Positions 1,523 to 11,471 of a stretch of 52,152 nt of DNA are shown in pieces (position 1 is the first letter of the stretch; each line of letters begins with the position of its first letter). Position numbers and translations under genes: made by a program. The stretch spans positions 893,369-945,520 of the forward strand of contig MKRX01000006.1 in assembly GCA_001898035.1 (NCBI GenBank), read 5' to 3'. The notes beneath the pieces are model-generated. The model saw only the letters and a program-made list of their open reading frames with translations, was not told the origin of the DNA and ran no database searches. This DNA comes from Armatimonadetes bacterium 55-13 (lineage in GTDB: Bacteria > Armatimonadota > Fimbriimonadia > Fimbriimonadales > Fimbriimonadaceae).

Positions 1523-2347
1523 ATGACTCCAGAGCGCCAAATATCCCGCAGACGGTTCTTGAAATCTGCGGGACTTGGCGCGGTCGGCGCTATAGGGACC
1601 TTCGCCTACGGCGACCTCACTAGCAGCAAGGTGCGCCTTGAACAAAAGGAACTGAAGCTTCCCAGATGGGACGCTGACGGGTTCAAGGTCGCGGTGATCA
1701 CTGACCTTCACTTGGATTACCCCGAAGCCGTCCTCAGGACTCAGTGGGCCATCTCCCAACTCGCCGCGCTCCAGCCTGACGTCTTTGTGATCGTGGGGGA
1801 TTTTCTTACTTCCGCTGCTCCCCAGAATCTCGAAAACGTGCGCACCGCACTCCGATACTTGGATCAAGTGAAGTGCCCCGTCTTCGCCACTCTCGGAAAC
1901 CACGACTATTGGGTCGGATACTTCGACTTGGTCACGCAAGCTATCACCAGCGCCAATCTACGTCTCCTGCGAAACGAAGTGGTCGACTTGAATGGCGTGG
2001 CTATCGCCGGTATCGACGATGACATCGCCTATAAAGCGCGCCCTGAACTCATCGCGGAGGCCAAGAAACCTAAATCCACCATCGCCCTCTTTCATGAGCC
2101 AGACAGCGTCAAGGACGTGAGTACGGACCTCAGTCTTCAGATCAGCGGTCATAGTCACGGGGGCCAAATCTGTATGCCGGGAGGTATCTCCGTTCACACT
2201 CCTCGAGGCGCCAAGAAATACATCGCGGGGTTCTATCCAGATGCCAAGGTTCCGCTCTACGTCTCGCGCGGAGTCGGTACTACCGGCCCCAATTGGCGCC
2301 TCTTTTGCCCTCCGGAGGCAACTCTCCTGACCCTCCGCGGGTCATAA
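1523..2347 (+). CDS. Metallophosphoesterase, Tat-exported, YkuE/YaeI-like
   Basis: This 274-residue protein opens with a twin-arginine signal (SRRRFLKSAG, about residues 8-17) and a hydrophobic stretch, so it is probably exported folded. The calcineurin-like phosphoesterase motifs are complete and in order: DLHLD, GDF, GNHDYW, FHEPD and GHSHGGQ. These supply the two metal sites and the catalytic His of GNHD. YkuE/YaeI relatives act on phosphoester substrates at the membrane; some, such as LpxG and YaeI, act on UDP-linked or lipid substrates, but the substrate here is not evident. It sits 7 bases upstream of a second member of the same family and is probably co-transcribed with it. ATG at 1523 is chosen because it directly precedes the Tat signal. 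Confidence 0.88.
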   Translation: MTPERQISRRRFLKSAGLGAVGAIGTFAYGDLTSSKVRLEQKELKLPRWDADGFKVAVITDLHLDYPEAVLRTQWAISQLAALQPDVFVIVGDFLTSAAPQNLENVRTALRYLDQVKCPVFATLGNHDYWVGYFDLVTQAITSANLRLLRNEVVDLNGVAIAGIDDDIAYKARPELIAEAKKPKSTIALFHEPDSVKDVSTDLSLQISGHSHGGQICMPGGISVHTPRGAKKYIAGFYPDAKVPLYVSRGVGTTGPNWRLFCPPEATLLTLRGS

Positions 2348-2354
2348 CAAGGAT

Positions 2355-3161
2355 ATGAAGTTAAGGAACTGGGCATTTTTGCTCGCGGGAGCTGGCGCCG
2401 CCATGTTGACATATGGCGTCCTCTACGAATCAAACCACCTGGTTCTGGAGCGTCGTCGCCTGAAGCTGCCCGGTTGGAAAAAGTCTCTCGATGGCTTCAC
2501 GATCGCCTTGGTCACAGACCTCCACCTCAAAGATCACTACTCCATCGAATTGGCCAAACAAGCTATCGCCATGGCCTTGGATCAAGAGCCCGACATGGTC
2601 GTCTTAGGGGGTGATCTGGTTGCCTATTGGCAAGAAGGCAGCGAAGACATGCTTGCCGAGGTTCTTGAGCCCTTGCTCCTGATGAACGGAAACGTCGTCG
2701 CGATTCCTGGAAATCGTGAGTATTGGTGTGGCGTTGCCGAGCGAATGCGTCCCGTAATGGATGCGCTCAATATCCGATTCCTTCGCAACGAGTCCTGGCG
2801 ACATGCCGGAATTGAATGGATCGGGATCGACTCTGCCAATGCGGGGATGTCCGACCCTTATGAAGCCGTTAGGGGGACCGAAGAGGGCCCGGCCATCGTT
2901 CTCTGGCACGAGCCAGACATGGTGGATTCACTCCCCTTCAGCGCCGACCTCATGCTCAGCGGCCACAGCCACGGCGGACAGTTCCGTTTTCCTGGCGGAT
3001 TTACTCCCATGCACTCCAAGAACGGTCGCAAGTACGTTTCGGGATTCTTTGAGGAGACGCCGGTTCCACTTTATGTGTCTAGGGGTATCGGCACCACTGG
3101 CCCCCCCAGCCGCTTTCTCTGCCCCCCGGAAGTCTCCCTCCTGACCCTTGAGTCCGCCTAA
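2355..3161 (+). CDS. Metallophosphoesterase paralogue with altered GNHD motif
   Basis: This 268-residue protein resembles the preceding gene along its whole length. It begins with an uncleaved-looking hydrophobic anchor (residues 5-24) instead of a Tat signal. It has DLHLK, GGDLV, WHEPD and GHSHGGQ, so the metal ligands appear intact. The third motif, normally GNHD or GNHE, reads GNREYW. The Asn ligand is kept, but the His that usually protonates the leaving group is replaced by Arg. It may therefore be a slower enzyme, use another proton donor, or have become non-catalytic. The product is probably anchored to the outer face of the inner membrane. It ends 32 bases before the tRNA-Arg gene. 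Confidence 0.87.
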   Translation: MKLRNWAFLLAGAGAAMLTYGVLYESNHLVLERRRLKLPGWKKSLDGFTIALVTDLHLKDHYSIELAKQAIAMALDQEPDMVVLGGDLVAYWQEGSEDMLAEVLEPLLLMNGNVVAIPGNREYWCGVAERMRPVMDALNIRFLRNESWRHAGIEWIGIDSANAGMSDPYEAVRGTEEGPAIVLWHEPDMVDSLPFSADLMLSGHSHGGQFRFPGGFTPMHSKNGRKYVSGFFEETPVPLYVSRGIGTTGPPSRFLCPPEVSLLTLESA

Positions 3162-3193: not shown

Positions 3194-3269
<76 letters not shown>

Positions 3270-3319
3270 CTTCTTCTCTTGTACGTTTTCAAGCGGATTC
3301 CACCAGACCATTCCGGGCC

Positions 3320-3712
3320 ACCTCCGGAACGTTTTGCACGGGCGGTGATGGCTCTTCCTGCACGGCGGGAAGCAGTTGCACCAGTGGTGCTGGCTGTACG
3401 AGCGGAAAGACATGCACCTTGTCTTCCACGGGGGTTTGTACGTCGGGCGAAAACTATACGAAGGGGTCAGACTTGTACCAACATTGTCGCGGGATCTCTG
3501 TGCACCACCGGGCAATGCACGTCAGGGGCAACCTGTACGTCGGGTACCAACTGTAGCTCGAAGAGTGGCCGCACTGCTTGTGACCCTCGTTTAACGCCGG
3601 TTGATCCCCCACCTGTCGATCCCAGCGGAACGAGTCAATCCCCGTCAATGCTTGAGCGTCTGTCACAGTTGTCGACATTGATCTTCGCTTGGCAGAAGAA
3701 CCCCATTTGGCT
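3320..3712 (+). pseudogene. Frameshifted remnant of a Cys-Thr repeat lipoprotein gene
   Basis: Two reading frames encode pieces that align with the middle and 3' end of the intact gene at 3915. From 3320 to 3466, one frame gives CT-G repeats including CTGGDGSSCTAGS, matching the intact gene's CTGGDGSSCTAGS. After 3467 the match continues in another frame (from CAG at 3468), through TCTNIV-GSLCTTGQCTS and CSSKSG-TACT-like residues, into a related Pro-rich tail and an ending similar to the intact C-terminus (LERLSQLSTLIF versus LNRLAHLSTAIF). A single base separates the two frames where three would be expected. No start codon, signal peptide or first half is present. It is best read as a truncated, frameshifted tandem duplicate next to tRNA-Arg. 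A programmed frameshift is unlikely, since the 5' half is missing. Confidence 0.75.
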
Positions 3713-3914: not shown

Positions 3915-4769
3915 ATGAAGCGGATGCTCTTTTGTCTGACATCGCTTGTTCTAACGGCGTGTTCATTTGCCGGGACGACTAGCCAAGACCTACCTGTTCA
4001 GCGCCACATCGCTCACCTGTCCTCAGCGGGCATGGCTGAGGGCGTATCCAACGTCGTTGATTCGTGGAACGACATCGTCTATGCGGAGATCGAGGCCCCG
4101 CCTGTCGTTCACAGTTCGACCGGAAGCGATTGCACATCCGTGATCAACTGTACAAACCAAACTAATTGCACCAACAGCGCTTGCACGGACGGCGCTTGCA
4201 CTTCTGATTCTAACTGTACTGCTGGTAATTACTGCACGAACGGCGGTCAGTGCACCACGGGTATCTACTGCACCGGCGGAGATGGGTCTTCCTGTACGGC
4301 AGGCAGCAAGTGTACTAATGGCGATGCCTGTACGCTTGGCACGGCATGCACAAGCGGAACATCCAACGTGTGTACGGCAGGTCAAAAGTGTACAGGTGGA
4401 ACGGACTCAGGCTGCACCTCGGGCACAAACTGCACCGCATCCAACGGTGGCGGTCCAGGCTGTACGAAAGACAAAGTCTGCACGAGCGGCGCGTGTACGA
4501 GCGGCGACCAGTGCACGACCGGCACTTATTGCACCAAGGGAGGACAAACCTGTACGAACATCGTTGTGGGTTCTCTCTGTACAACGGGGCAGTGTACGTC
4601 CAATACCGCCTGTACGTCGGGAGACAACTGTAGTTCAAAGAGCGGCACGACGGCGTGTACTCGGCGGCCAACCCCCGCTGAACCGGCTCCAGACCCAGGG
4701 GTGCCGGCAGGAACGTTCGCAAGTCTGCTCAATCGACTTGCCCATCTCTCAACCGCTATCTTTGGGTAG
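3915..4769 (+). CDS. Lipoprotein with about 28 Cys-Thr hexapeptide-like repeats, function unknown
   Basis: Start chosen at ATG 3915, preceded by GGAGGGAA (3901-3908) and located downstream of the promoter; an in-frame TTG at 3825 is inside that promoter. The 284-residue product has a lipoprotein signal ending in LTAC, with lipidated Cys16. After a linker comes a Cys-rich region (about residues 73-248) with 28 cysteines, 27 of them followed by Thr. The commonest spacing is 6 residues, in the pattern C-T-x-G-x-x. A Pro-rich stretch and a short helical tail (LLNRLAHLSTAIF) follow. No family is recognised. The regularity suggests a small disulphide-stabilised solenoid displayed on the periplasmic or outer surface. 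It is first in a probable operon with the next three genes (48-base gap, then overlaps), and a decayed copy lies just upstream. Confidence 0.75.
   Translation: MKRMLFCLTSLVLTACSFAGTTSQDLPVQRHIAHLSSAGMAEGVSNVVDSWNDIVYAEIEAPPVVHSSTGSDCTSVINCTNQTNCTNSACTDGACTSDSNCTAGNYCTNGGQCTTGIYCTGGDGSSCTAGSKCTNGDACTLGTACTSGTSNVCTAGQKCTGGTDSGCTSGTNCTASNGGGPGCTKDKVCTSGACTSGDQCTTGTYCTKGGQTCTNIVVGSLCTTGQCTSNTACTSGDNCSSKSGTTACTRRPTPAEPAPDPGVPAGTFASLLNRLAHLSTAIFG
4131..4658 (+). repeat. Degenerate tandem repeat encoding Cys-Thr-x-Gly units
   Basis: Of the 27 Cys-to-Cys intervals, 16 are 6 residues, 4 are 5, and the rest are 7 to 10. Cys codons alternate between TGC and TGT and Thr between ACG, ACC, ACA and ACT. 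The repeat is therefore kept at protein level rather than being a recent DNA-level expansion. Confidence 0.85.
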
Positions 4770-4780
4770 CCATCTCCTTG

Positions 4781-4801
4781 CCCTGCCAGCCATTGGCAGG
4801 G
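4781..4801. repeat. Perfect 8-bp hairpin between the Cys-Thr repeat gene and the next gene
   Basis: CCCTGCCA (4781-4788) pairs with TGGCAGGG (4794-4801) around a 5-base loop. There is no T tract after it, so it is not a typical intrinsic terminator. It lies just before the GTG start at 4818 and could tune read-through, mRNA stability or translation of the downstream genes. Confidence 0.5.
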
Positions 4802-4817
4802 CAACCGTGAGGATCTC

Positions 4818-6584
4818 GTGTTAGCAACGTTAGTTTTGCCTTTCATCTTGTTCGCCCCATTGGAGACTAAGGATCGCCCTCTTCGGAACGATTCCACGGT
4901 GAGTTTTCCGGTTGGCATCTATACGTTCGAAGAAATCGCGAGACGGCTGAGCACATCTGAATTCACGATCACTTCGGGGGTTCCACTCAAGCTCCGTGCC
5001 GCGCTTGTTTCTCTACGAGACCGGCCGCGTTCAGAAGCGATCGAACTCCTTGAGAAATCGTTGGATGTCAAAGTAAAGCCCCAATCTGACCATGGGGGGG
5101 TCTTAACGCCAGATGACACGACTGCCGCAAGGGAGAAGCAGTGGAGAGCGGGCGTTAATGGACAGCTCATCGCAAGGTTTCAAAAGCTTTCTCGAAGCGT
5201 TTATGAGAATCTGGTCCAATATCAGTCGCTCAACCAAGAAGACCTTCGGCAAGCGGTTACTCTCACTGGGTCCGAATTGGATGAGGCAAATGAGGAGCTG
5301 AGTATCGCTCTGAATCCTTCCCAGAGCCTAATGGATCGACGGGATCGACTCGTGGCTCAATCGATTGCGGCGCAGGCCATGGACGACAAGCGGTCCTCCG
5401 CTGCCCTGCATCTCTTGAACGCATACTTGGCGAACAGCCCCAAACTGCTGGCCAGTTTTACACTGGGTCCCCAGATCGTGACGCTCAGTCCGCGCGATAG
5501 AGAACTCTTGCTCAAGGCCTTCAGCGATGGCTATCCACTCGACCAAAGCGATGGCAAACAAATCGTATCGGTGTGGAATGCGGCTCGCGAACCAGACCGA
5601 ATTCAATTCTCGCTGGATCTGATTTTCGGGCATTCCAATGGACTCACGTATCCTCTCGGCCCATCGCTCACCACGACTATCCCCTCGATCGTCACGAAGA
5701 GAAATCAATCTCTTGCCGCCCAACTCCTGGGGCCTGAATCGCAGAGGTGGGGACTTCGACTGGGAGAAGAAGCCAAGTCCTTCTTTGAAAGTGCGAAGCG
5801 AGATACGGAATCAGCTTTGCGGTCCGAGAGTCTCGCTACGGAAGTGAAACTTGAGCCTACGAAATCTGCCACGACCTACTCCGAATTAGTCGAGGCCTGG
5901 GCGAGGGAGACGAAGGCTGATGTGGTGATGGAACTGCAGCCTCTAGCCGACAGGCTCCGAGGACCCGTCCAGGGCATCTTCTATCTCACAAAACTCCCTT
6001 GGATCGAGGACTCAATGAGCTTGTCCTACAGCGGCGAAGTTTTGATGGTAAAGAATCTTCTTTCCTTCTATGACCGCCAGTACAAGTATCCGACTGCACC
6101 GCTCTTCTCCCTCTATCGAGGACTGACAGGCCCCCGGGGAAAGAAGGCAGATCAGATTCCAACGTGGCAAGAGCTCTCCCGGTATTTCGCAAACTCGGAC
6201 GGTGGGGCTTGGCTCGCCTACGGTACGCCCAGAATCGACAACTACCGCGGTATGAACCCGGCTCCGATCGAGACAGCGGCCCTGACGTTTCAGGTTCTCA
6301 GATACACCTCTTCGGCTAAGGCCATTCCCTCTCGACCGGGAAGCGTAGTTCGGATAGACCTCGGCGGAGTGTCATCCGGAGCACTGCGAAGTGCCGTCGC
6401 CGCCGCCCAACACTTGGCGTACGATCCCCAGCTATTTGATCCTCGTTTGGCTAATTTTTTGACCCGGCAAAGCTTGTTACTGTCCCGAAATGGCGATGGA
6501 ATCTGCACCGCTGTTATCGAGCGGAACGACGCCCAAGATCCTTACCTCACCTGCGCGCAAAGGCTGGAGTTTAGATCGGAATGA
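4818..6584 (+). CDS. Exported protein of unknown function with possible STN-like segments
   Basis: A 588-residue protein starting at GTG 4818, with a GTGAGGA stretch just upstream as the possible ribosome site. The first 14 or so residues form a short hydrophobic signal, so the protein is probably periplasmic. I recognise no family with confidence. Residues about 28-90 and about 345-410 each resemble the secretin/TonB short N-terminal (STN) pattern: a predicted strand, an amphipathic helix (YTFEEIARRL; TYSELVEAWA), then a strand with a plural-helix tail. The centre is helical and charged. Its stop overlaps the next gene's start as ATGA (6581-6584), so translation is probably coupled to the membrane protein downstream. 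The role inferred from position is a periplasmic partner of the two large membrane proteins. Confidence 0.7.
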   Translation: MLATLVLPFILFAPLETKDRPLRNDSTVSFPVGIYTFEEIARRLSTSEFTITSGVPLKLRAALVSLRDRPRSEAIELLEKSLDVKVKPQSDHGGVLTPDDTTAAREKQWRAGVNGQLIARFQKLSRSVYENLVQYQSLNQEDLRQAVTLTGSELDEANEELSIALNPSQSLMDRRDRLVAQSIAAQAMDDKRSSAALHLLNAYLANSPKLLASFTLGPQIVTLSPRDRELLLKAFSDGYPLDQSDGKQIVSVWNAAREPDRIQFSLDLIFGHSNGLTYPLGPSLTTTIPSIVTKRNQSLAAQLLGPESQRWGLRLGEEAKSFFESAKRDTESALRSESLATEVKLEPTKSATTYSELVEAWARETKADVVMELQPLADRLRGPVQGIFYLTKLPWIEDSMSLSYSGEVLMVKNLLSFYDRQYKYPTAPLFSLYRGLTGPRGKKADQIPTWQELSRYFANSDGGAWLAYGTPRIDNYRGMNPAPIETAALTFQVLRYTSSAKAIPSRPGSVVRIDLGGVSSGALRSAVAAAQHLAYDPQLFDPRLANFLTRQSLLLSRNGDGICTAVIERNDAQDPYLTCAQRLEFRSE

Positions 6585-9034
6585 AAACACTTGATCGACC
6601 AAGGCACATTGATCTGCCGCTTGAAAATCCGCCTTTAGAAGCAAAGGATCCGACACCGGTTGCCGCCAGTCACAGGATTACGCTTCTTGAACGAGGGTAT
6701 TGGGCATTTGCCTCACTCTTTGCCATCCTCGCCTTGGATGGTTATTTCCCGGTTGCGATGAAAAGTGCCGGATTTGTGGGGGTACTCGCGGTGGTTGCCC
6801 TCTCCATCTTTTGCTTCAAGTTCGAGCGATCATCCTTGGCGCGGGACTTGTCGATCACCGTCGCCGCTGCGGTGTGCGCGAGCCTTCCCATCCCATTGTG
6901 GTCCTGTGCCACCGCCGTTTGTCTCATCTTTCTTGCTTCGAACATCTCTGCAGAGTTGAGACGTTGTTACGAATTGTTGTCCGCCTCGGTTGTTCTGACG
7001 GCTCTAGTCTCCTACGGGCTCTTGGTCGGTCTCTCCTATGGCCCGATCAACGAGACCTCGGCAAAATTCATTCAAGGCTTTCCCCGTCTTTCTGGGTACG
7101 GGCTTCTTGCCGGACTGAGCTCCCTGTCCATTACGCCCATCGTTTTTGCCTTCGCTTGGTTGATGGTGGTGATTGCAAGGCGAAAGCTTTCGATCAAACA
7201 GGCCCTCGGATTGACGGGAGCCGTCTTGGTGATAACCCTTCTTTGCCTCTATCTCGATAGTCTCGTGCCGATCCTTCTGTCGATCCCATTTCTGCTTGGG
7301 CTCAGCTTACGGGGCATGCCTGAAGACCGTAAGTTGGTGCATGGAAAGAAAGTTGGGATCGCCATGGGCGCGGGCGTTCTCGCTGCGATTACCTTTTGTC
7401 TGCTGATGATGGGTCGCCCAACGGTCGTCGCCGCCGTTCCTCACATCGCCTTTGTTGGCGGCGGGATGAAGACGTTTGAAGCGACGAAGGCTGACGATTT
7501 CACCGAGCATACGGAGGCCGACTTTGCTGCCTTGCCTCAGTTGCTCAACGAAAATGGCTTTCGGGCCAGCATCATTCCGGAGAAGTTTGCGGCAAAGGAT
7601 CTGGCCGGAATGGATGCGGTAGCAGTCATCAATCCGGATAAAGAGTTTACGGAAGACCAACTTCTGGCTCTTGAAGACTTTGTAAAGTCCGGCAAGGCGA
7701 TGTTGGTTCTAGGAGACCACACCAACATCGGCGGTGTCATGGGACCCGTCAATCAAGTGTTGCGGAAAACGGACATTCGTTTGAAGTTCGACAGCGCCAT
7801 TCCAATGGACGATCCGTATCGGTGGACGAATTCACTGGTGGTGCGACCGTTTCAGGGATACGCACCGGACAATGGCCAGTTGGGTATTAGCGTTGGCGCT
7901 TCTCTTGAGGCGGGACCGCGGGCGGAACCCACGGTTATGGCGCAATATGGATTTTCCGACAAAGGGAATCCAAACTACGGACTCTCAAGGCTCGGAAACA
8001 GAATCGCCGATCCCGATGAGCGGGTAGGTGGCCTTGTTCTTGCCGCTCGCCAGCGTCTCGGCAGCGGTGTCGTCGTCGCGTTTGGCGATACGTCAGGCTT
8101 TCAAACGAATCCGTTGGCAATGGATCACGAGCAGATCCTTAAGGAATTCCGGTCTCTGCTTCGTATTCGACCGTGGCCAATCGATAGTGACGTCGCTGGT
8201 TGGCTGCTGCTTGCGGCGCTTGCCTCGGTCGTCCTATTTGTGCGTTCGAGGTGGGCGGCAATGGTGACGGCCCTGTCAATGACCGTCTGCTGGGCGGCCG
8301 CCAACAGTTACAGCGAGAATCTCGTGCATGTCCCCCTGAGTCGGGCGCGGGCGATTGTGGATATGTCTCATTTCCCGGCCTATCCAAATAGCAACTCCGA
8401 CTTCTCTTTGCTCCGTTTCTCGGACATGTTTATCCGATTTGGCGATGTCCTTCAATCGAGGCGCACCTTGGACGACGTGTTGGGGAGCCATCCTCAGGTG
8501 ATCAGCATCAATGGCCCTCGGCAGTCCTATTCTCTCGATGAGTCCAAAAAGATTCTTGACTATGTCGCTGAAGGACATGGACTTCTCATCGCGTGCGGAC
8601 ATAAAGAAAGCGAGAACGTCAAGAACCTGCTGGCGCCCCTGAAAATCGAAGTTACGAGTGTCCTAACGGGGGCCGCTCACCGAGCCCGGGTGTGGTCGGT
8701 ATGGCGACCTTGGGTCCTGACAAGGCCCGATGGCAAGCCCGCCACTGAAGCACCCCAGATCGATAAGTTCCTTAAAGATGAGTCTTACGATGCTGACATC
8801 CGGTTCGGCGAATCCTACGCTCTGAAGGCTCCAGACGCCGAAGTTCTGGCGTCTACCTGGGACTACCCACTCGCCGTCGCCAAGAGCTATGGAAAGGGTC
8901 ACATCGTGGTGATCAGTGATTCGCAATTCTTTACCGCTCGATGCTTGGGCAAGGAGTACATGAACGTTGCAAACAATCGCTTCCTTTACAAGGTCTTGGA
9001 ACACCTTTACCAAGACCCTGGGACTCTTCGATAG
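6581..9034 (+). CDS. Polytopic membrane protein with amidotransferase-like (DUF4350-type) domains, paralogue A
   Basis: 817 residues. Residues about 35-270 contain six to eight hydrophobic segments. A large soluble region follows with a Rossmann/GATase1-like pattern: a partner strand (AVAVINPD), a helix, then MLVLGDHTNIGG. This resembles the DUF4350 or GldG-like domains found in membrane complexes. Two more hydrophobic segments lie near residues 535-570. A second GATase-like domain follows, with LLIACGHKES and, near the end, HIVVISDSQF. No catalytic Cys/His nucleophile set is visible in the GATase-like domains, so they may bind ligands or protein partners rather than hydrolyse glutamine. The next protein has the same plan, including GDHT at the same place, so the two are paralogues and may form a heteromer. 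Function unknown. Confidence 0.75.
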   Translation: MKTLDRPRHIDLPLENPPLEAKDPTPVAASHRITLLERGYWAFASLFAILALDGYFPVAMKSAGFVGVLAVVALSIFCFKFERSSLARDLSITVAAAVCASLPIPLWSCATAVCLIFLASNISAELRRCYELLSASVVLTALVSYGLLVGLSYGPINETSAKFIQGFPRLSGYGLLAGLSSLSITPIVFAFAWLMVVIARRKLSIKQALGLTGAVLVITLLCLYLDSLVPILLSIPFLLGLSLRGMPEDRKLVHGKKVGIAMGAGVLAAITFCLLMMGRPTVVAAVPHIAFVGGGMKTFEATKADDFTEHTEADFAALPQLLNENGFRASIIPEKFAAKDLAGMDAVAVINPDKEFTEDQLLALEDFVKSGKAMLVLGDHTNIGGVMGPVNQVLRKTDIRLKFDSAIPMDDPYRWTNSLVVRPFQGYAPDNGQLGISVGASLEAGPRAEPTVMAQYGFSDKGNPNYGLSRLGNRIADPDERVGGLVLAARQRLGSGVVVAFGDTSGFQTNPLAMDHEQILKEFRSLLRIRPWPIDSDVAGWLLLAALASVVLFVRSRWAAMVTALSMTVCWAAANSYSENLVHVPLSRARAIVDMSHFPAYPNSNSDFSLLRFSDMFIRFGDVLQSRRTLDDVLGSHPQVISINGPRQSYSLDESKKILDYVAEGHGLLIACGHKESENVKNLLAPLKIEVTSVLTGAAHRARVWSVWRPWVLTRPDGKPATEAPQIDKFLKDESYDADIRFGESYALKAPDAEVLASTWDYPLAVAKSYGKGHIVVISDSQFFTARCLGKEYMNVANNRFLYKVLEHLYQDPGTLR

Positions 9035-11471
9035 CGCTCTAACGGTCTTACTCTGTGCCTGGCTTGCCAGCATTGCCCTGCCGAGATCCGCTTTTGGAAT
9101 TGGCCAAGTGCCCGGCGATAGTCTCTTGCTGGGTGTCTTGGTCGTCATCGTTTGGAAGCTCGCGGCAAATTCGGGGGAGACGCCCTTCCCGCGAGATCGC
9201 GCTTGGCTATTCCTCGCCGTCCCTCTCCTTGCCACTCCGTGGATGCCTCCGAGTATTCGCTTGGGGCTGATCTTCCTTGCATTGACGGGCGTTTCTTTGA
9301 TCTGGAACACACTCTGGCTCCGTGGGTTCGGAACTCAGATGCTTAGACTTTCGCTGGTTTGGATGGGAGCTATCGGAGCCCTGGAGTTATTCGGTTTCCT
9401 CCAACCTCGGCTCGGCGCCATCATCTTTCCGGGCGGTGCGGTGTCAGGATTGCTCAAGCTAACGGGGCTCCCCGCCCAATTCGCAGGATCAGGTTTTGAT
9501 CTGGTGTCGAATGGTGAAGCATCCCGGGTTTTGCTGAGTAGCGACAAATTCGGAGGTGCGTTTGCCGTTGCCCTCGTGGGCGCCGTTGTTGGTGAGTATT
9601 TGCTGCGGGGACGTTGGGTTGGACTTGCAAAGGCTCTCACGTTAACTTTGGCTTACATTGCCACCAGGGGTATTTGGCTGGCCGTCTCCATCGGCACGAA
9701 TGGCTCCAAGTTCTATTGGTTGGACGAGAAATTCCTGTTCCTGACGTTTGCCCCATTGGCAATTTTGCTTCCCCTCATCGCTATCAAGCCGTCCGCATCC
9801 CCAGATGGCTCCGTTACCGGCAGAGGCAATTTCTTAGGTCTCGTTTCAAGCACCCTGGGCCTTGCGCTGATCGTTTTTGCCTGGCTATTCGTAGACCCAG
9901 GCCACCCAAAGGCCGGAAAGGTTGTAATCGACGAACACTACAGTCGATGGGAGTGGAGCGAAGATCCTCTCAGTACCGAGCGATATGGAGTGAAAACCGT
10001 ATACAGCTATTCCGATTGGGCCAAGGAGATGGGCCGGAGCAAAAAGGTTGAGCAAAACTTCGAGGAGATCACGGACAAGACCCTCGAAAACGTCTCCGTA
10101 TTGATTCTCAAGACGCCGACGAAGCCTTATTCACAAGACACCATTCAGGCGATTGATCGCTTCGTGAGGCGAGGCGGAGGGCTATGGTTGATCGGTGACC
10201 ATACAGACATATTTGGGATGGACACTTACTTGAACTCAGTAGGCAGTCAGTATGGGCTCACCTTGGAATCGAATGCGGTGATTGATCCCTATACAACCCG
10301 TCAAATCATTCGACCGCGACCGTATTCGCATCCAGTCGTTCGGGAGATGGGCAATTTCCTGATGTACACAGGGTGCTCCATCAAACCCAGTTGGACCAGC
10401 GTAGACGCCTATTCCGCGGATCAAGCGTTCATCGATGATCCCGATTTCTCAAGCAACACCTTCTTCGGAAACTTCCAACTCGATCCCTCCGAGTCTGTAG
10501 GACCCGTAGTGCAGGCCGCCGTCGTGAACGTGGATAAGGGACGAGTTGCTATCTGGAGCGATTCCACCCTCTTCTCGAATTTCTCCATCTACATGCCCGG
10601 AAAGTTGGAGTTGACCCACGGCTATCTCAATTGGTTGGACCGAGAGAACTCCTACTCGTCTTGGCGTTGGATCCTAGGTGCGCTTGGTCTGGGCGTCTTG
10701 CTCGTAGGTCTATCGAGGCAGCCTCGCGGAGTCGCGTTTTTTGCCATCGCCGGTTGGACGGGAATCGCGCTCGGATTAGTCGGAAGCACGTTCTGGGTGA
10801 GCAAGATCTATCCCGATCTGAAGCCAGATCCGGAACAAAGACTTGCATTCGTTCCTTCGGCAGACCAAAGGTGCTTGCCGGTTCTGTACCCTCCGGTGGA
10901 TAAACGCGACCTTGCGAGCTACCTGACGACAGTTGTCGGAGCCCAGCGAATCAACAAACGCCCTCGGGTTGTTTCTTCCATTGAGGAAGCAATCGCTTCG
11001 CCTGCCGCCGTCATTCTGCGGCCCATGAGCGAATGGCAGCAGTCTGAAGTCGATAAGGCAATCCAATGGCTTAAAGGAGGAGGAAAACTCACGATCTTGG
11101 ATGGCCGACTGATTCCAAAGACCGTCCACGCTCTCTCACAAGAGATTAGCTTCATCAATCTTCCTCAACCCAAATCGGAAGAGGAGAACGGAATTCCGGT
11201 CCTCCTTGAGGACAACTCAAAAATGGTGACAACCACGCAGGGAGTTCGGCTTGGGAGCCAACCGTTACAAACCCACATCCTCGGCGGTTCCGCTCTGTTG
11301 AGAAGCGATGGGAAAACGGTAGGAGCCCAAGTGAAAGTGGGCCAAGGCGACATGATAGTGACTTCGACCGACTTCCTCTTCAGTGATCTCAGTCTCGGAA
11401 CGAACTCTGAGGTCCCCGATCTTCGGCAGCGGGATGTCCTGAATGTGCTTTACGGGTGGTTTACAAGATAG
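8967..11471 (+). CDS. Polytopic membrane protein with exosortase-like N-terminus and amidotransferase-like domains, paralogue B
   Basis: 834 residues if started at TTG 8967, which overlaps the upstream gene by 68 bases. No other usual start codon precedes the first membrane segment, so the exact start is uncertain. Residues about 20-275 hold several membrane segments whose spacing recalls exosortases, with a G-x-G-F-D-L strand, a VLLSSDKFGG turn and an ATRGIW segment like the conserved N-x-x-R. The position where exosortases have the catalytic Cys reads S-S-D. A GATase-like domain follows (GGLWLIGDHTDIFG), then two membrane segments (about residues 565-620) and a second GATase-like domain (KLTILDG near residue 710). 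It is the last gene of the probable operon and ends 16 bases before a convergent gene. Function unknown. Confidence 0.72.
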   Translation: MQTIASFTRSWNTFTKTLGLFDSALTVLLCAWLASIALPRSAFGIGQVPGDSLLLGVLVVIVWKLAANSGETPFPRDRAWLFLAVPLLATPWMPPSIRLGLIFLALTGVSLIWNTLWLRGFGTQMLRLSLVWMGAIGALELFGFLQPRLGAIIFPGGAVSGLLKLTGLPAQFAGSGFDLVSNGEASRVLLSSDKFGGAFAVALVGAVVGEYLLRGRWVGLAKALTLTLAYIATRGIWLAVSIGTNGSKFYWLDEKFLFLTFAPLAILLPLIAIKPSASPDGSVTGRGNFLGLVSSTLGLALIVFAWLFVDPGHPKAGKVVIDEHYSRWEWSEDPLSTERYGVKTVYSYSDWAKEMGRSKKVEQNFEEITDKTLENVSVLILKTPTKPYSQDTIQAIDRFVRRGGGLWLIGDHTDIFGMDTYLNSVGSQYGLTLESNAVIDPYTTRQIIRPRPYSHPVVREMGNFLMYTGCSIKPSWTSVDAYSADQAFIDDPDFSSNTFFGNFQLDPSESVGPVVQAAVVNVDKGRVAIWSDSTLFSNFSIYMPGKLELTHGYLNWLDRENSYSSWRWILGALGLGVLLVGLSRQPRGVAFFAIAGWTGIALGLVGSTFWVSKIYPDLKPDPEQRLAFVPSADQRCLPVLYPPVDKRDLASYLTTVVGAQRINKRPRVVSSIEEAIASPAAVILRPMSEWQQSEVDKAIQWLKGGGKLTILDGRLIPKTVHALSQEISFINLPQPKSEEENGIPVLLEDNSKMVTTTQGVRLGSQPLQTHILGGSALLRSDGKTVGAQVKVGQGDMIVTSTDFLFSDLSLGTNSEVPDLRQRDVLNVLYGWFTR

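Follow-up and report, generated by a model that had tools for sequence, protein, structure and literature searches.

A secreted Cys-Thr hexapeptide-repeat protein heading a predicted four-gene membrane operon in an Armatimonadota genome

The window analysed here, a stretch of 52,152 nucleotides from the genome of Armatimonadetes bacterium 55-13, carries a gene, named here gene C, whose product represents an unnamed, predicted secreted protein family defined by a very simple code, C-T-x-small-x-x. Judging from its neighbours and from related genomes, this gene heads a conserved four-gene operon of membrane and exported proteins, in the order C-X-A-B, and therefore its function becomes testable by genetics instead of resemblance. 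The product is tentatively regarded as a Sec-exported and oxidised protein, forming a disulphide-stapled solenoid that would serve at the cell surface as a rod or coat, with X, A and B exporting or anchoring it. To the sequence-only reading that had pointed out the repeat, the present analysis adds a decayed upstream copy, relatives and the conserved operon. The features of the region are listed in Table 1.

Table 1. Features of the gene C region, with positions in the window and the basis of each assignment
Feature	Position	Strand	Basis and remarks
tRNA-Arg(TCT), immediately before the decayed copy	3194..3269	+	context
Decayed tandem copy of gene C	3302..3686	+	lacks a start and a signal peptide; frameshifted once; pieces 54% and 68% identical, in two frames
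Gene C, secreted Cys-Thr hexapeptide-repeat protein, 284 aa	3915..4769	+	ORF and repeat counts; no Pfam/NCBIfam/PHROGs family above cut-off
Signal peptide	3915..3974	+	hydrophobic segment at residues 4-22 and N-termini of relatives; exact cleavage site deduced
Short conserved N-terminal segment VQRHIAHLSSAGMAEG (relatives LYRHIATLSANGMREG)	3996..4043	+	alignment with relatives
Array of 28 Cys-Thr units, 16 of 27 intervals of six residues	4131..4658	+	repeat counts, permutation test
Linker rich in Pro, then a weakly hydrophobic C-terminal tail	4659..4766	+	hydropathy; no transmembrane segment in the window copy
Perfect hairpin of 11 bp in the C-X spacer, lacking a T-run	4778..4804	+	fold -23.3 kcal/mol, z=-2.84
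Gene X, exported, 588 aa, N-terminal domain FPxGxYTxEEIAxxLS	4818..6584	+	domain common to paralogues in the order; no Pfam family above cut-off
Gene A, multi-pass membrane protein, DUF4350 / ABC_transp_aux (GldG-like) domains	6581..9034	+	
Gene B, multi-pass membrane protein, DUF4350 / IFT52-GIFT domains	8967..11471	+	exact start codon uncertain

The repeat and the export signal of gene C

Gene C is preceded by a ribosome-binding site judged good by direct reading (GGAGGGAATTCCGT-ATG). Its product has 30 cysteines, of which 28, an even number, lie within residues 73-248, a span of 176 residues; the next residue is Thr in 27 cases and Ser in one, and 16 of the 27 Cys-Cys intervals are exactly six residues long, figures that reproduce on recount those of the sequence-only reading. 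The form C-T-x-G is found by manual count in 18 of the 28 units. When the mature protein was shuffled 20,000 times with its composition preserved, at most 13 C-T pairs and 7 six-residue gaps were obtained, compared to the observed 27 and 16, and gaps shorter than five residues, of which the protein has none, reached a mean of 9.8. Likewise, CC, CxC and CxxC do not occur in the mature protein. Gaps of 5, 7, 8, 9 and 10 residues break up the array, and the content of Thr, Gly, Ser and Asn is high.

Regarding export, two candidate cleavage sites can be read, a lipobox LTAC with its cysteine at position 16 and a signal-peptidase-I site between SFA and G at 19/20. The protein had at first been called a lipoprotein, and the LTAC string is indeed present in the window copy, but the lipobox is not conserved among the relatives, most of which carry AxA-type, signal-peptidase-I-like sites instead; the label is thus weak, and the signal-peptidase-I site is favoured for gene C, judging from these relatives. 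The dense alternation of Cys and Thr could also recall the core of a modified peptide, with thioether links between Cys and dehydrated Thr, an explanation made extremely improbable by the Sec-type signal peptide, by the membrane anchor of relatives and by the named domains of the operon, none of which is a modification enzyme.

Relatives and selection

Used as a single query, the gene C protein reached no family cut-off in Pfam or NCBIfam and found no match in PHROGs or among PDB sequences, in agreement with the earlier statement that no named family was known. In its own GTDB family (85 genomes) no match was found outside its own genome, nor was any found among viral contigs, plasmids and phages. 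Across 291 genomes of the phylum, scanned with a DNA pattern for four CT units spaced six residues, real Cys-Thr arrays occur only in the own genome and in two others, G172 and G175, belonging to another family within the same order; with the same repeat in these relatives, gene C is not an orphan. The phylum-scan matches in G135, G139 and G260 are pure tandem repeats and were discarded. Among 84,980 other species the DNA pattern retrieved at least 119 stretches, and nearly all of those screened proved to be tandem arrays of low complexity.

In G172 two CT genes lie in tandem, encoding 314 and 395 aa (likelier starts) with 34 and 48 Cys, while G175 has a single one of 233 aa, with 25 Cys. Diverse spacers, the same CT grammar and a common N-terminal motif are signs of true kinship, and in the alignment of the relatives H31, I32, A33, L35, S36, G39, M40 and G43 are invariant after the signal peptide (H-I-A-x-L-S-x-x-G-M). 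Among 93 clean six-residue units from four proteins, Cys is present in all, followed by Thr in 85 or Ser in 7, with Gly at position 4 in 50. The relatives carry 12-15 uninterrupted six-residue units, the longest run being the 15 consecutive units of L154 (G175), and four of the five relatives have a C-terminal transmembrane segment. Taken together, these proteins are, as far as sequence comparison goes, an undescribed family of secreted proteins. The G175 gene (L154:7650-8363) stands alone, without a C-terminal membrane segment and with methyltransferase/nuclease-like genes downstream, and may be a relic. A secreted protein on the minus strand of L081, from a Bacteroidetes MAG, was also observed, having a six-residue repeat of another kind, CTHxxx, then HAYDxx repeats, and no Pfam family above cut-off.

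The decayed copy, located between the tRNA-Arg gene and the intact gene C, allowed a comparison of 41 aligned codons, with a pS of 0.74 (saturated), a pN of 0.16 and a dN/dS of about 0.05, a ratio that is approximate because dS is near its ceiling. The low pN at saturated pS indicates that both copies were long under selection before one decayed. The Cys codons are mixed (15 TGT, 13 TGC), all four Thr codons are in use, and a tandem-repeat finder returned a single 36-base array only. Mixed codons and synonymous saturation, together with the conservation of the amino acids, therefore show the gene C repeat to be conserved at the level of the predicted protein and exclude recent DNA slippage as its origin, as had been proposed from the variation of the codons. 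Upstream of the tRNA gene, positions 1523-3161 of the window are occupied by two adjacent paralogous genes that look metallophosphoesterase-like by eye (GDHTH-type motifs).

The C-X-A-B operon

Within the order, four out of 113 genomes have gene B (the own genome, G172, G048 and G022), and in all four a Cys-rich secreted gene stands first, followed by X, A and B, which in G172 come directly after the CT genes. The first gene encodes 26 Cys in 318 aa in G048 and 40 Cys in 464 aa in G022, both products being secreted with a C-terminal transmembrane segment. The Cys gaps in these two proteins are irregular, ranging from 6 to 13, and therefore a strict hexapeptide is not needed by the operon. When non-overlapping ORFs of at least 150 aa were surveyed over 420 kb (311 ORFs, from the window and the loci retrieved), a Cys-rich composition, defined by at least 15 Cys and more than 5%, was restricted to the operon C genes and the lone G175 copy, beside which no operon was found.

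Overlaps of a few bases between gene ends, at C/X in G172 and G022 and at X/A in the window and G048, suggest translational coupling. The hairpin between C and X is possibly an mRNA-stability or attenuation element, and it might protect the C message, so that the level of C would exceed that of X-A-B.

Between 5 and 10 transmembrane segments are predicted in A and B, together with soluble domains of the DUF4350, ABC_transp_aux and IFT52-GIFT-like types. Both proteins exceed the Pfam cut-off of 30.4 for DUF4350 (PF14258), with 51.3 bits for A and 32.5 bits for B, while the GldG model (TIGR03521; cut-off 389.85) is not reached by either (12.6 and 16.2 bits, respectively). In addition, B matches the eukaryotic IFT52 GIFT domain above the Pfam cut-off, and the best PDB matches of its profile are to IFT52 (E=2.7e-4). 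In archaea, membership of a secretion system with S-layer-type neighbours has been predicted for DUF4350/GldG-like proteins (PMC5898192).

X-type proteins, with the FPxGxYTxEEIA domain and a length of about 560-780 aa, are found throughout the order as a family of paralogues that usually stand alone, such as the one at about 7969-9966 of L188; in the order loci inspected, no Cys-rich neighbour accompanies the other X paralogues. The N-terminal domain is reminiscent of a short N-terminal domain of the secretin/TonB type, a likeness that Pfam does not detect. Outside the order, B-like genes were seen in G259, G147 and G247, with no Cys-rich gene on their short contigs. In L212 (G259:C491), which belongs to a different family of the phylum, the gene preceding two B/A-like membrane proteins is pseudopilin-like and not Cys-rich.

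Fold of the repeat

The AlphaFold models, for the full gene C protein (pLDDT 40) and for the run of 15 units, with eight repeats aligned (pLDDT 39), are of low confidence and have no regular coil, and the structure prediction is uninformative on the solenoid envisaged in the sequence-only reading. The profile built from the clean repeats fared differently and gave a single significant PDB match, at E=2.4e-5, to 1EZG, the antifreeze protein of Tenebrio, whose Cys are in register and which is the nearest solved analogue; with the full-length profile the match has E=0.0079. Composition-shuffled control rows retrieved no PDB match, whereas rows keeping the Cys positions only retrieved 1EZG again (E=1.5e-4), and thus the match rests mainly on the spacing of the cysteines. 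It reflects, at the level of sequence, a common Cys-every-six feature, being no proof of homology, and its value as proof of fold is weakened by this control.

A further feature of the repeat is the residue three positions after Cys, which in 80 units is Gly, Ala or Ser in 61 and bulky in 9, compared to 34, 19 and 32 small residues at the other positions (p=3e-8). In a left-handed hexapeptide helix, the small residue occupies i+4. That fold fits gene C less well, as its pattern ([LIV]-[GAED]-x2-[STAV]-x) is not found, Cys being at i and the small residue at i+3 instead of i+4, and LpxD and hexapeptide-transferase models gave only sub-threshold matches to the relatives. In the Tenebrio coil, a right-handed 12-residue solenoid with i/i+6 disulphides, Cys points inwards and so does the small residue at C+3 (S5 and A11; PMC8038014), and the bias seen here fits a similar half-coil per unit. 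No sign of a superperiod of 12 or 18 residues was seen (P=0.58 at lag 2 and P=0.75 at lag 3), and the value at lag 4 (P=0.04) is not significant given that several lags were considered.

The analogy with the beetle solenoid is consequently upheld in part, by the top match to 1EZG and by the small residue at C+3, and qualified by the dependence of the match on Cys spacing and by the absence of the TxT motif, as Thr precedes Cys in only 2 of 127 units. The spacing of the insect antifreeze family PF02420, with two Cys in 12 residues, six apart, is found in 16 of the 27 gaps of the window protein and in the 15 consecutive units of L154. This common Cys register, with one outward Thr per unit forming Thr ladders, would allow gene C to be an ice-, mineral- or polysaccharide-binding solenoid using these ladders as a flat face, as in the beetle protein. 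Such a role seems improbable, as TxT, considered key for ice binding (PMC8038014), is missing, the clean runs of the relatives score only 15.2 and 15.9 bits against the PF02420 cut-off of 36.5, the family being unlisted for the window protein, and the interruptions of the array would break a flat lattice match.

The low-confidence coil of the models, the broken array rich in Thr, Gly, Ser and Asn and the irregular Cys spacing of the G022 and G048 proteins are also what would be expected from the main rival, in which gene C encodes an irregular and mostly unfolded Cys-rich matrix protein, joined into a coat by intermolecular disulphides, much like spore coats or chlamydial envelopes, with no solenoid and with X-A-B handling export. 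This is held to be rather unlikely, as random cross-linking needs neither a strict C-T-x-small-x-x order, in which C+3 and no other site takes the small residue, nor 12-15 unbroken units.

Proposed function

In the stapled solenoid that is tentatively preferred, the gene C protein would be exported by Sec beyond the cytoplasmic membrane, where its 28 Cys would be oxidised by VKOR and DsbA, of which the genome has two each, one frame, at C27:125 kb, being a VKOR-DsbA fusion. Each C-T-x-small-x-x unit would then form half of a 12-residue coil in a narrow beta-solenoid, with Cys and the small C+3 residue facing inwards, Thr and the remaining positions outwards, and neighbouring Cys (i, i+6) bonded across the coil. 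The product would be a stiff, hydrophilic rod or coat subunit in which a hydrophobic core is unnecessary, and X, A and B would export, anchor or assemble it. Weighing against this picture are the low pLDDT of both models, the dependence of the 1EZG match on Cys spacing, the missing two-unit superperiod, the breaks in the array, the irregular gaps in G022 and G048, the window copy's tail with no transmembrane segment and the G175 gene standing outside an operon.

The same 28 Cys in 176 residues might instead be kept reduced, making gene C a periplasmic thiol or metal sponge, or a redox buffer, whose Cys bind metal or absorb oxidants, and ZnuA/ZnuC-like genes do follow the operon of G172, and a metal-efflux-like RND gene precedes C in G048. 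This appears quite unlikely, because the CxC and CxxC typical of metallothioneins are lacking, no metal gene is conserved next to the operon in the window or in G022, and an oxidising pathway is present.

A broader proposal, and a doubtful one, extends the stapled solenoid to the whole of C-X-A-B, which would be an undescribed bacterial system for the export and assembly of a solenoid fibre or coat at the cell surface through paired GldG/IFT52-GIFT-like membrane proteins, the Tenebrio-type coil having arisen independently in bacteria, for structure and not for ice. If real, the solenoid would mean that bacteria evolved the coil of beetle antifreeze separately and without the ice face, and it would offer both a natural template on which disulphide rods could be designed and a way into the role of DUF4350/GldG-like membrane proteins.

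Comparison with known systems

Cys-rich, cross-linked envelope or coat proteins are known from chlamydiae (OmcA and OmcB) and from the coat and exosporium of Bacillus. Gene C resembles OmcA/OmcB and the Bacillus coat proteins in being exported, very rich in Cys and probably oxidised for a structural role; it differs in having a regular six-residue unit and an operon of its own with GldG/GIFT-like membrane proteins, and no sequence relation to them was found.

Compared to complexes of the DUF4350/GldG type, namely GldG, an ABC component of gliding motility, and the archaeal arCOG01314 neighbourhoods (PMC5898192), the likeness lies in the DUF4350 and ABC_transp_aux domains placed beside an exported, surface-type protein. 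Besides this similarity, C-X-A-B has no recognisable GldF-like permease, ATPase or vWA/MoxR pair, and A and B each carry several transmembrane segments at the N-terminus along with two soluble stretches.

With the hyperactive antifreeze proteins of Tenebrio and Dendroides (PF02420, 1EZG), built as a 12-residue beta-solenoid of the form TCTxSxNCxxAx, gene C has in common a Cys every six residues, Thr after Cys, a small residue at C+3 and secretion. However, Thr follows every Cys in gene C and every second one in the antifreeze proteins, the array is interrupted, and the lack of Thr before Cys leaves no TxT ice face; moreover, the bacterial protein is distinguished by its additional N-terminal motif, its membrane-anchored relatives and its setting in an operon.
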